Source: a virus | DNA: 32,805 nucleotides | IMG/VR virus record: IMGVR_UViG_3300034117_001391 | Location: 1 to 32,805 of that record | Direction: 5' to 3' (one strand) | Shown here: positions 11,370 to 15,598 of the stretch, in pieces | Numbering within the stretch: the stretch's first letter is position 1 | Layout: the number at the start of each line of letters is the position of its first letter | The notes under the pieces: generated by a model | The model's database searches: none | Told to the model about the DNA's origin: nothing | What the model saw: the letters and a program-made list of their open reading frames with translations, nothing else | Translations under genes and position numbers: made by a program

Positions 11370-12747
11370 GCCTGCTCGCTAGTTCTGCAACCGTTGGATT
11401 GCTCTGTGAGGCGGCCGTTGCTGCAGCTGCAAGGTTACCAACTAAATTTGTTGCCCTAGCAACTCGCTTCTCGGCCTTTAGAACTTCTTTATCCGAGTCA
11501 GTAAGACCAATGCGGTTGTAAGTAACTTCTGAGTCTCCAAGCAATACACCGGCAGCAATTAGCTTCACGGCTTCGTCCGCGGCTGCAGCTCTTGTAGGAG
11601 TTGAAGCGTCTCGCCAGATTGGGCGAATAGAACTTGCTTCTGCTGGGATTGATCCGTCGCGAACCAATAGCGCTAGTCTAGCAACTTCCGCCCAAGTGCG
11701 ACCAAATTGCTTCTGGCGTCTTTCAGCGCGCTTTACAAGTCTTGCTTCCATTTGGCGAATTGCATCGGCACTTGATGGGTTGTCTGTTTGGAAACCGAGG
11801 TAAGAAGAAGGTATTGCTGTTTCGGCGGCAAGCAACTGAGCATAAGCCCTGATCTGCTCAAAGTATGGTGAAGTAGAGTTTGCGGCAAACTGTCCGACCT
11901 GAGGAACTTGACCATCTTCATTTGTTGGAACTCCAAGGTAACGACCTTGATAAACAGTCCAAGGGTTCAAAGGATTTCCGTCAGCATCGGTAAAAATGTC
12001 TTCAGGTGCTCCAAGAATGTAACGCTGCGGAGCTGAATAAAACTCTCTTGCAACTTCAGCACCAAGCAATGTTCTCATTGCGCTATCTGTATAGCTTCTA
12101 ACTGCAGGGGTAATTTCTGATCGGCCATAAGGATCCGAGCTGCGTGGGTTATTAGGTAATGAAGCAACTAATACTCGACCAAGCCTGTGCTCGTCACGGT
12201 CAACGTCAAACCACATTCCGTTTGCATACTCAAGGCTAATGTTCACATCTGGCAGATACAAGGTTCCAAAATTTGGCACGCCATTTTCAGATCTGTGAAC
12301 TAAAAGAGCTGCGGACAAGCGTCTTGTTCTCATGTCGTAATGAGCAGTCATGGTTGTTGGCGACTCAATTGTAATTAGCGGGTCAGGCTCGCCTTCGCGG
12401 CCTTTACCAACAACAATAAAACCGGTTCCAAAAGTAAGTGCATCACGATGACCAAGGGTTGACTCAAGATCAAGTTCGTTTGCACGGAAAATTTCATTCA
12501 AACCAAAAGCATCGCCACCAATGTACCCTTCAAGGTCTAGGCGCTCTTCAAGTACGTCAACAGCGGTTCCGGCCCAACCAACAACGGATTGAACAGCTGT
12601 TAGTTGTGGTGGGATTGAAATGCGAAGATCTTTTAGTCGGTTTTTACCTTCGTAATAGCGACCCAGTTCTGCATTCTTTGCATCGTGGCTTTGCAGTTTC
12701 CTGAACAAGTGGTCAACTATGCCAAGTTCATCTGGAGTTAGGCTCAT
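11356..12747 (-). CDS. Portal protein (SPP1 Gp6-like)
   Basis: This 463-residue protein follows the large terminase with a 4-base ATGA overlap. It matches the SPP1 Gp6-like portal family: N-terminal LGRYYEGKNRLKDLRISIP, then VVGWAGTAVDVLEERLDLEG, a central LVASLPNNPRSSDPYGRSEI, and a long C-terminal helix with SSADAIRQMEARLVKRAER. Twelve copies should form the DNA channel at one capsid vertex and dock the terminase and later the adaptor protein. The C-terminus is rich in Ala, as in related actinophages. Confidence 0.92.
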   Translation of the reverse strand: MSLTPDELGIVDHLFRKLQSHDAKNAELGRYYEGKNRLKDLRISIPPQLTAVQSVVGWAGTAVDVLEERLDLEGYIGGDAFGLNEIFRANELDLESTLGHRDALTFGTGFIVVGKGREGEPDPLITIESPTTMTAHYDMRTRRLSAALLVHRSENGVPNFGTLYLPDVNISLEYANGMWFDVDRDEHRLGRVLVASLPNNPRSSDPYGRSEITPAVRSYTDSAMRTLLGAEVAREFYSAPQRYILGAPEDIFTDADGNPLNPWTVYQGRYLGVPTNEDGQVPQVGQFAANSTSPYFEQIRAYAQLLAAETAIPSSYLGFQTDNPSSADAIRQMEARLVKRAERRQKQFGRTWAEVARLALLVRDGSIPAEASSIRPIWRDASTPTRAAAADEAVKLIAAGVLLGDSEVTYNRIGLTDSDKEVLKAEKRVARATNLVGNLAAAATAASQSNPTVAELASRRVTS

Positions 12748-14294
12748 AAAATGATAGCCTTTCGAGTAGTAGATGTCTTGCGGTCTTTGATTACTGATCT
12801 TGCCCCATTAGCAAGAACTGAACATGCCAAGAGGTCAACTTTTCGTGGTGAACCACGCTTCTCCTTACGGAAAGAGCCTGACTCTGTAGCAACCGCATTC
12901 AGAACGTGTCTCTGAAGTCTTGGATCGCCGTCATGACCGATCTCTTTGGCTACAAGATCGGCTAAAAACTGTTGCGCCATTGGTGCTATTCTGTGGTTGG
13001 TTGGTGGAATACGCTCAACTTTTCTGCGCCAGCGTTTTGACCATTCAAGAACATCAGGCTCGTAAAAGCTTGGATCGCACCAAAACAATTGTACGTCGTA
13101 TTCAGCAAACATCCGCTCAATAGAAGCGTTGACGTCTGCGCGGTCGACCGTCCATTCAGGATCTTGCGGATCAGGTTCCCAAACGTTCAAAACTTTTAGT
13201 GTTCCTGTTTCAACATCAATAGCAACAAGCCCTGTTGCGTCACCTGATACAGAACCGTCAAAACCAGCACAAATTTTTGCGCCTGGTTTGATTGTGGTTT
13301 CTCTTAGTGCCTCGGACCAGTGATGCGGACTAATAAAGTCTTCACCGGCTAATCTAACCCACTGGTTGAGTCTATAACGCTGGAAGCCTGCGAAGCCTGC
13401 AGATCCTGCCGAAGCAATGGCAGCTTCAAAGTCTCCCTGGTCAAGTAGTCCTTCAGCCAGGTTTGGGTTTGCGATGGTCCAGCTTGCCGGGTTTGTCGGA
13501 TCGGCGTCTTGGCCAGCTTCCCACCACCAAAACCCGAACTGCGGATCGTCAATTTCTCCAGCGGCAACTCTTTTTCCGTGCTCATACAAACGTCCAAGCA
13601 AAGTGTCAGTGTTTCCACCCGCGGTCGTGATACCGACAACAAGCGATTCGGGTCTATCGGCCGATCCTTGAGTAAGCGCTTCCCAAAGCTCATCGCCACG
13701 GGTATTGCTAATCGAAGAAGGCCAAGCATGCAATTCATCAGCAACAACAAGCGACGGTGCAAGACCGTGGGCTCGCATTGCATCAGCTGACAAGGCTCTA
13801 TAAACGCTTCCTTTACTCGGAAGCTCTAGTGCGTCTCTATAAACTTTTACAATTCGAGAAAGTGCGGGATTATCAAGAACCTGTTGGCGCGCTTCACCAA
13901 AAACAATTTTGGCTTGTTGACGATCGGAAGCGGCCGAATAAATCTGACCACCTTGCGGTCCGTGAACTAGGTGCTCAAGAGCTAACGCCGTTCCTAATAA
14001 ACTTTTTCCGTTTTTCCTTGGAAGTCCGATTACAGCCCTGCGATAGCGAAGTAAATTTGTTTCTGGATCAAGTTCTAAAAGCCTGTCCATAAGCCAGTTT
14101 TGCCAGCTTGTAAATTCTAAAGGTTCGCCGGCCTTGAAGCCGCGAGAAGCTTTCAAAAGTGTTGCTGCGAAGTCTGAAACGTCCGGCCCCCTGGTGTGGT
14201 CGGATAGGGTTGGAACTGACCAAGCAGGAGCCCAAGCGTCAGCCGCGGTTGCCAGCACGCTCTTGTCGGCGCTTTTGTAAGTCATCGAGTTCAT
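12744..14294 (-). CDS. terL: Terminase large subunit
   Basis: The ATPase/nuclease that cuts and pumps DNA. Counting from the longest open frame (TTG at 14315), the Walker A segment is GLPRKNGKSL at about 97-106, Walker B is LVVADELHAW at about 189-198, and the coupling motif ITTAGG lies at about 229-234. The nuclease domain begins at CAGFDGSVSGDATG (Asp353) with a later FWCDPSFYEPD. The start is unsure; ATG at 14294 is preferred because CAGGG lies 7 bases upstream. The gene overlaps the small terminase by about 56 bases. Confidence 0.93.
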   Translation of the reverse strand: MNSMTYKSADKSVLATAADAWAPAWSVPTLSDHTRGPDVSDFAATLLKASRGFKAGEPLEFTSWQNWLMDRLLELDPETNLLRYRRAVIGLPRKNGKSLLGTALALEHLVHGPQGGQIYSAASDRQQAKIVFGEARQQVLDNPALSRIVKVYRDALELPSKGSVYRALSADAMRAHGLAPSLVVADELHAWPSSISNTRGDELWEALTQGSADRPESLVVGITTAGGNTDTLLGRLYEHGKRVAAGEIDDPQFGFWWWEAGQDADPTNPASWTIANPNLAEGLLDQGDFEAAIASAGSAGFAGFQRYRLNQWVRLAGEDFISPHHWSEALRETTIKPGAKICAGFDGSVSGDATGLVAIDVETGTLKVLNVWEPDPQDPEWTVDRADVNASIERMFAEYDVQLFWCDPSFYEPDVLEWSKRWRRKVERIPPTNHRIAPMAQQFLADLVAKEIGHDGDPRLQRHVLNAVATESGSFRKEKRGSPRKVDLLACSVLANGARSVIKDRKTSTTRKAIIL

Positions 14295-14754
14295 CACGAA
14301 CCCTGACTTCTGCAAGGCCTAATCTTGCCCTGTCCGCCGGTGAAAAACCTAACGAAGAAAGCCAGGCTGTCATTTGAGCTCGCAGCTCTTTCATCTGGCT
14401 TATGTATGGGTGAGTAACAATTGACCCATTGCTGGTAATGTACGTTCTTTCAGCAAGTCCGGTCGCGAACGCGTTTCGGATCTCGGAGTATTCATCGAAA
14501 GCTTCACACAACAAAGTAACGGTTGTTCGGTCTGCAGCTGGAGCAAGCCACTGACGACCAGCTTCCCAGGTGTGATTCCAAAGCTCGAGTCCAGGATCAA
14601 GTAATGACAACGGAGCTTCTGGGATCGAACTAATTCCGTCAATCCCGCTTCCAGGTCCTGGTGCGGGTGGAAGTGTTTTGTGACCTGGGTTTCCCAAGGC
14701 TCTTTGCATTTCTGCGGGTTTGGCAGGTCTTCCTGTCGGTCTTCCGGTGGCCAT
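14239..14754 (-). CDS. Terminase small subunit (P27 family)
   Basis: A 171-residue protein with a Pro-rich basic N-terminus (TGRPTGRPAKPAEMQRALGN) and a C-terminal part that matches the P27-type small terminases: RTYITSNGSIVTHPYISQM followed by LGFSPADRARLGL. It recognises phage DNA for packaging and loads the large subunit, whose gene overlaps its end. The ATG has a weak upstream site in a 143-bp gap. The HNH gene on the other side of that gap fits a cos-type packaging arrangement. Confidence 0.88.
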   Translation of the reverse strand: MATGRPTGRPAKPAEMQRALGNPGHKTLPPAPGPGSGIDGISSIPEAPLSLLDPGLELWNHTWEAGRQWLAPAADRTTVTLLCEAFDEYSEIRNAFATGLAERTYITSNGSIVTHPYISQMKELRAQMTAWLSSLGFSPADRARLGLAEVRVRDELDDLQKRRQERAGNRG

Positions 14755-14897: not shown

Positions 14898-15245
14898 TTA
14901 GAACCGTCGTTTGATTCTCATAGACTTCTTGGCTTCGTTGCCTTCTTGACTACTCTTTGCCCTATGGCAATGAGGTTCGACGTGATCGTGGATAGCTTTC
15001 AGGTTCGTCAAGCTGTGGTCGTCGCCAGCGATTACGTGGTCGACTGCATCAGCTCCTGGTTGGTTGCAAACGTAACAGATTCCTTTGTCTCGCTTCAACA
15101 CAACAAGCCTTCGAGTGTTCCAGTCCCTGGGTAGCCTGGCCTTACGTGTCGAATTCTGCCATGGCCGCTGGTGGTTAGAACATCTACCCATTTTCAATAC
15201 ATACTCCCGGCACCCTGTTTCTAAACACGGTGTTGGTGCAAGCAT
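14898..15245 (-). CDS. HNH endonuclease, terminase-associated
   Basis: A 115-residue protein with two N-terminal Cys/His clusters (PCLETGCREYVLKMGRCSNH) and an HNH core: GICYVCNQPGADAVDHVIAG (C-x-x-C and D-H), the LTNLKAIHDHVEPHCHRAKS region supplying the Asn and final His residues, and a basic tail (KKSMRIKRRF). HNH proteins beside terminase genes are known in many cos phages to work with the terminase in end generation. Its ATG overlaps the stop of the FmdB-like gene (TAATG). A homing endonuclease is less likely given its position. Confidence 0.85.
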   Translation of the reverse strand: MLAPTPCLETGCREYVLKMGRCSNHQRPWQNSTRKARLPRDWNTRRLVVLKRDKGICYVCNQPGADAVDHVIAGDDHSLTNLKAIHDHVEPHCHRAKSSQEGNEAKKSMRIKRRF

Positions 15246-15520: not shown

Positions 15521-15598
15521 TGGACCTGTAGGGAATTGAACCCTAGTGCGTTGTATTCGCATTGTGCGCTTTGTACAACGTCGAAACCATTCAAGCCC
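15521..15598 (-). ncRNA. tmRNA-like tRNA-like domain without a tag-coding region
   Basis: Read on the minus strand, GGGCTTG (15598-15592) pairs with CAGGTCC (15528-15522) in a 7-bp acceptor stem that includes G3:U70, followed by A73 (15521). The D-arm region reads AATGGTTTCGA and continues into CG, almost identical to the conserved GGUUUCGAC motif of tmRNA. A perfect 7-bp stem (CGTTGTA/TACAACG, 15580-15574 and 15555-15549) replaces the anticodon arm, corresponding to tmRNA helix P2, and is joined by 3 nt (CAC) to a T arm with stem TAGGG/CCCTA and loop TTCAATT. CCA is not encoded. In a normal tmRNA P2 leads to pseudoknots and a tag frame; here it closes on 18 nt. Alanine charging is predicted from G3:U70; function unknown. 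Confidence 0.78.

Follow-up and report, generated by a model that had tools for sequence, protein, structure and literature searches.

A phage-encoded family of tmRNA tRNA-like domains lacking the mRNA-like domain

Introduction

In trans-translation, tmRNA is charged by alanyl-tRNA synthetase (AlaRS), for which a G:U at pair 3 is the recognition mark, SmpB stands in for the missing anticodon arm, EF-Tu brings the molecule into the vacant A site, and the ribosome then goes on translating on the tag. The D-loop motif of the tRNA-like domain (TLD) of tmRNA is contacted by SmpB in known structures.

From Mycobacterium phage DS6A, a TLD-only tmRNA has been described which is reported, in two articles relaying the result of Mao et al. 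(2009), to be an inhibitor of tmRNA in E. coli (PMC4131195, PMC11915505). Inhibition by a DS6A-like molecule is reported to be strong whether it is chargeable or not, perhaps via SmpB titration (PMC4131195). The TLD-only phage tmRNA is thus already known as a kind, and the DS6A form contradicts an earlier sequence-only reading of the locus analyzed here, which took a tag to be present in every known tmRNA. A database published in 2025 counts 97,179 unique tmRNAs, including 79 of phage origin, and places 9 of all its entries under "standard, no CDS" (PMC11915505). For the phage Lacusarx, a tmRNA is thought to counteract host tagging (PMC5648845); a tmRNA annotation was not found in positions 64500-73500 of KY629563 (L313).

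Results

The window, i.e., the whole stretch of 32,805 nucleotides of a viral record (IMGVR_UViG_3300034117_001391) that was analyzed, bears a gene for a TLD-only tmRNA-like RNA of 78 nt, running on the minus strand from 15598 (mature 5' end) to 15521 (discriminator A73). All parts named in the sequence-only reading (7-bp acceptor with G3:U70, A73, D-arm motif, P2, 3-nt connector and T arm) are present at this locus, albeit on the minus strand, which had not been stated.

15521..15598, minus strand: TLD-only tmRNA-like RNA (RF00023, 47.0 bits; model R1, 66.7 bits; at least 124 distinct relatives)
15592..15598, minus strand: 5' strand of the acceptor stem, GGGCUUG with G3 (paired to 15522-15528; covariation)
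15580..15591, minus strand: D-loop region with the GGUUUCGAC motif (direct sequence reading)
15549..15580, minus strand: P2 arm (direct reading, folding, family covariation)
15529..15545, minus strand: T arm UAGGG-UUCAAUU-CCCUA, 5 bp (sequence, RF00023 alignment, covariation)
15522..15528, minus strand: 3' strand of the acceptor stem, CAGGUCC with U70 (G3:U70 in 123/124 distinct members)

In 5' to 3' direction, the first half of the element reads GGGCUUG AA UGGUUUCGA CGUUGUA CAAAG CGCACAAUGCG AA and the second half UACAACG CAC UAGGG UUCAAUU CCCUA CAGGUCC A. The seven acceptor pairs include, besides G3:U70, a second G-U at pair 5:68; together with A73, the G3:U70 pair makes up the alanine identity, while CCA is not encoded (CUC is next). 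The P2 arm is composed of the 7-bp stem CGUUGUA/UACAACG, an asymmetric internal loop (CAAAG/AA) and an apical hairpin (CGCA-CAA-UGCG) that can be formed within the 18-nt P2 loop, and the connector consists of the 3 nt CAC. Folding of the lone sequence results in a minimum free energy of -25.4 kcal/mol with P2 rearranged, versus -24.5 kcal/mol for the covariation-supported fold. Hence, single-sequence folding is no proof of P2, which is proven by the comparison of relatives instead. A promoter scan did not reveal a sigma-70-like site near the element.

The Rfam tmRNA model RF00023 aligns end to end with the window element at 47.0 bits, which equals the gathering score (E 9e-16), with 18 nt where the model has 310 positions separating the two strands of P2. 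In this alignment the pseudoknots PK1-PK4 are absent. The element also lacks the mRNA-like domain and has neither resume codon nor tag frame, P2 being closed by the 18 nt, as had been read from the sequence alone. As tag frame and pseudoknots are two defining features and neither is present, the RNA is not a full tmRNA. Model R1, a covariance model built from the RNAs of 19 relatives with the window left out and therefore independent of its sequence, scores the element at 66.7 bits (E 4e-14). ARAGORN called neither a tRNA nor a tmRNA on the element. A cloverleaf with anticodon loop is likewise absent, the second arm being a stem, an internal loop and a short capped hairpin. The halves follow the standard order D, P2, T and are not permuted. 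A phage-encoded TLD in standard order, without CDS and with 78 nt to A73, fits the TLD-only class (about 65-85 nt), and the window element is a real and complete tmRNA TLD without the mRNA-like domain.

A permuted tmRNA was also considered, as ARAGORN calls such genes in XacN1, Rb1, X1, SM1 and S-CAM1, but was rejected due to the standard gene order in the window. A permuted call of 626 nt in the Streptomyces phage BRock overlaps the TLD-only RNA of this phage and looks spurious. Separately, the ARAGORN calls in Xanthomonas phages XacN1, Rb1 and X1 and Pseudomonas phage SM1 (L252, L253, L254, L258) represent unannotated permuted tmRNA genes with plausible tags.

For collecting relatives, a first pattern comprising only the D-loop and T-loop motifs at a distance of 24-54 nt was employed, matching at least 119 viral contigs. 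Among the matches at all loci collected by then, 113 had 6-7 acceptor pairs, and 109 of these 113 had G3:U70. A second, orthogonal scan combined the T loop with the apical module (AAAGCCGCANGCGGA), without any criterion on the acceptor or the D arm. Pattern scans and model together yielded at least 146 elements in 145 records, corresponding to at least 124 distinct sequences. Carriers are mostly metagenomic phage contigs but also cultured Streptomyces and Stenotrophomonas phages, with model-confirmed RNAs in the Streptomyces phages LuckySocke, Alone3, pSt2308, BRock, Shaeky, Riptide and Tomas and in the Stenotrophomonas phage Jojan60, whereas for GiJojo and Naboo the evidence is limited to matching BLAST hits. 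In the cultured phages, the RNAs adjoin or lie within tRNA arrays, without any RNA-gene annotation at these sites, and ARAGORN gave no standard-form call for the RNA in the window or in the cultured phages checked. The BLAST look-alikes in GMA2, Sixama and Armstrong were not counted because of low model scores (21.6-35.9 bits); the GMA2 and Sixama sequences resemble the 3' end of an ordinary tmRNA. One viral contig (L035) carries two TLD-only RNAs on the plus strand, at 5-81 and 1317-1392, which are 1.2 kb apart and score 44.9 and 54.8 bits.

Applied to bacterial and archaeal genomes totaling 257 Gb, the first pattern gave 59 raw matches, of which 4 are strong by the model (L186, L190, L203, L204). 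The only one from a named cultured bacterium, on contig 3 of Cellulosimicrobium cellulans MP1 (L204), lies beside five tRNA genes and two phage-type glycosyltransferase genes, and this locus is probably a prophage or a phage-derived element. With merely four strong matches in this data set, one of them close to phage-type genes, the TLD-only RNA is strongly associated with phages.

As the first pattern fixed letters of the D and T loops, these were excluded as evidence; acceptor, P2, apical hairpin, G3:U70, A73 and the GGAC junction had not been part of it. In alignment A3 (73 rows, the last three weak and probably non-members), a covariation score of 0.708 was obtained, compared to 0.141 after shuffling and at most 0.104 with partners slid, and 96.1% of the pair cells hold standard pairs. 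The apical-module set, whose selection ignored acceptor and D arm, shows a score of 0.596 versus 0.128. Strong covariation is thus seen across the family in the stems of acceptor, P2, apical hairpin and T arm. In the apical-module set, a 7-bp acceptor is formed in 36/37 distinct sequences, all 36 of them with G3:U70 and A73. With both sets pooled, G3:U70 is kept in 123/124 distinct members; A73 is found in 94/94 distinct members of the first set and in 37/37 of the apical-module set. Next to the fixed pair 3:70, acceptor pairs 4-6 show all Watson-Crick types across members. Free variation at pairs 4, 5 and 6 while 3:70 stays G:U and position 73 stays A argues for selection on AlaRS identity and not on folding alone. 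Judged from these sequences, the alanine identity is near-invariant across the family. The sole member with G3:C70 instead of G3:U70 (L111, 7289-7367, minus strand) provides a naturally occurring case for testing whether the RNA can do without charging. The interpretation of the window element as a tag-less tmRNA TLD, as initially put forward, is accordingly corroborated by the Rfam tmRNA match, by covariation in every stem and by near-invariant G3:U70 and A73 in 124 distinct relatives.

A GCG at 15569 indeed starts an 8-codon frame ending in UAG, which had been read as probably due to chance. Ala-codon-to-stop frames occur in 49 of 94 distinct members compared to 60.6 in shuffles and are thus not enriched, so that the frame in the window is a product of chance.

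Most members keep the TLD-type D-loop, the GGAC junction and the P2 architecture. The D-loop motif, however, is less well conserved than the alanine identity, reading GGTTTCGAC in only 17 of the 37 distinct sequences of the apical-module set, i.e., about half, with variants such as GGUAUCGAC, GGUUUAGCC and AGGUAAGAC in some members. Due to this variability, some members of the family may be recognized differently by SmpB, or not at all. Beyond P2 come an asymmetric internal loop, mostly AAANCC with A at 99% in one column, and an apical hairpin of 3-4 bp with short caps such as GNRA, CUUG or CACG. In three relatives found via the terminase (L123, L143, L153), an AARNCC-type loop and the hairpin are kept but the D-loop motif is not, indicating a second conserved feature beyond the TLD alone.

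All genes checked around the window element are on the same strand, and the element divides a terminase/structural block (HNH, small and large terminase, portal, tail) from a replication block (RusA, replication initiator, thymidylate synthase, RecE-like exonuclease).

14898..15245, minus strand: HNH endonuclease gene, directly downstream of the RNA and before the terminase genes (phrog_333, E 7e-20)
12744..14315, minus strand: terminase large subunit (phrog_9, E 2e-96)

The terminase is nearest to those of Pontimonas and Streptomyces phages, at about 35% identity. In relatives of the large subunit, the RNA is located upstream of the terminase at a distance of 962 nt (L123, L124), 1.5 kb (L143) or about 4.9 kb (L153). 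Twelve further terminase relatives searched at a relaxed threshold gave a single weak match (L131, 30.3 bits) that was not counted; hence, the RNA comes and goes within the phage lineage of the window and is not shared by all of it. A small HNH gene between RNA and terminase genes, assigned by PHROGs in the window, is also recognizable by sequence reading in L123 (about 1770-1945), and annotated HNH genes are present near the tRNA/tmRNA region in Microbacterium phage Armstrong and Streptomyces phage Shaeky. A tRNA is encoded within 1 kb at 31/100 member loci, and at 30 of these 31 it shares the strand of the RNA. In 50 carrier records, many of them fragments, no SmpB gene and no second strong tmRNA match to RF00023 were detected; the RF00023 cut-off was passed by 48 of the 50, and the only strong matches are the elements of about 80 nt.

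Discussion

The proposal made from the window alone, of a potentially alanylated RNA bound by SmpB and EF-Tu, for example a decoy, fits all evidence and is supported, with alanylation, SmpB binding and effect being inferred. Specifically, the most likely, albeit not certain, interpretation is that the charged phage RNA with host SmpB and EF-Tu competes with host tmRNA at stalled ribosomes and blunts tagging, a function which is inferred and has not been demonstrated. The RNA would be transcribed with phage genes, trimmed like a tRNA and provided with CCA by the host, and host AlaRS could then charge it with alanine via G3:U70. Bound by host SmpB and EF-Tu-GTP, the charged complex might replace host tmRNA in ribosomes that have stalled on broken mRNA with a vacant A site. 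There, the RNA would accept the nascent chain without offering a tag frame, and host trans-translation (tagging, proteolysis) would be blunted during takeover. Having only the TLD parts, the RNA could compete as far as peptide transfer, this step included, but would give no template. The fold, its conservation, the near-invariant alanine identity and the phage association were observed, as was the lack of a detectable phage SmpB or second full tmRNA in the carrier records; that the RNA is transcribed, charged, bound by SmpB and EF-Tu, admitted to the ribosome and able to affect tagging is inferred.

The near-invariant G3:U70 suggests that charging matters in nature, favoring a complex that reaches the ribosome over plain SmpB titration. 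As inhibition by the DS6A-type molecule is reported with or without charging, decoy action alone does not explain this conservation. Simple competition, on the other hand, does not explain the apical module (AAANCC plus hairpin). Both features would be accommodated by a rather unlikely alternative, in which the charged RNA and host SmpB free stalled ribosomes and the peptidyl-Ala-RNA is then released, e.g., by drop-off and peptidyl-tRNA hydrolase. Phage proteins would escape ssrA tagging, ribosomes would be recycled, and the apical module would help at the step served by the stop codon of the tag; a chain-accepting role needs the charging identity. To our knowledge, however, no release step without a stop codon is known, and the DS6A-type molecule is reported only as a tmRNA inhibitor. 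In favor of tag-free rescue, mitochondrial tmRNAs without tag frame persist alongside a mitochondrial SmpB (PMC11915505). A block of tagging and a tag-free release cannot be separated from sequence. Taken further, the elements might form a large uncatalogued phage RNA family functionally distinct from tmRNA, alanine-charged and SmpB-dependent, with the apical module enabling either release without tagging or an active tagging block and thus serving phages as a general counter to host ribosome quality control; this is put forward only tentatively and is open to considerable doubt.

Better conservation of the alanine identity than of the D-loop motif would also be compatible with a charged tRNA-like RNA that donates alanine or acts in some other way apart from the ribosome, SmpB being uninvolved. 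This is held to be very improbable, since most members retain the TLD-type D-loop, GGAC junction and P2 architecture, and a linked transferase gene was not identified, albeit neighbors were not systematically surveyed. Hardly better founded is a role as RNA-processing signal, i.e., a tRNA-like fold cut by RNase P or RNase Z in the phage transcript: many members are situated in tRNA arrays and the window element between two gene blocks, but processing needs no G3:U70, and P2 and the apical hairpin would be superfluous. Finally, many phages integrate in ssrA, carrying its 3' end, and Milly and Validus show such a 3' match beside the integrase; that the element is left over from an attachment site or a captured host tmRNA gene, or stems from a collapsed assembly, is nevertheless scarcely credible, as the Milly/Validus match covers only a 3' segment of about 31 nt, as expected for a relic, while in the window element both halves are intact and covarying, and recurrence in 145 records including complete cultured genomes, together with covariation, rules out assembly collapse or a pseudogene and removes the grounds (lack of conservation, collapse) on which the element had been said to be refutable.

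The near-invariant G3:U70 makes a direct prediction, namely that the RNA must be charged to work, and testing is possible now in the cultured Streptomyces phages BRock, LuckySocke and Shaeky and in Stenotrophomonas phage Jojan60. By inference, phages probably use this RNA to compete with or redirect host rescue of stalled ribosomes. If the RNAs act as the DS6A form is reported to act, phages would widely manipulate trans-translation by an RNA missed in tRNA/tmRNA annotation.

Compared to one-piece tmRNA (RF00023, ssrA), the window RNA shares the acceptor with G3:U70, A73, a GGUUUCGAC-type D-loop, P2 and the T arm, but is devoid of resume codon, tag frame and pseudoknots, with a hairpin closing P2. 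The TLD parts are also shared with the permuted two-piece tmRNAs of phages, alpha- and beta-proteobacteria and cyanobacteria, which, however, encode a tag and have the T-arm half in front of the D half (e.g., in Xanthomonas phage XacN1), in contrast to the standard order in the window. G3:U70, A73 and the T arm are found in tRNA-Ala as well, whereas the D stem and the 7-nt anticodon loop are lacking in the window RNA. CDS-less organellar tmRNAs from mitochondria and from plastids of Mallomonadaceae (about 65 bp) are likewise TLDs without tag frame (PMC11915505), but are non-phage and, in mitochondria, usually permuted. The DS6A RNA (Phage__Mycobacterium.9 of the tmRNA Website) is the single published phage case, as opposed to the at least 124 distinct TLD-only sequences, nearly all from phages, collected here, and these also contrast with the 9 "standard, no CDS" entries of the 2025 database (PMC11915505). 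As far as the open-access literature was searched, a family of this size with its own conserved module has not been described. New, therefore, are the size and spread of the family, its near-invariant alanine identity and the conserved apical module.
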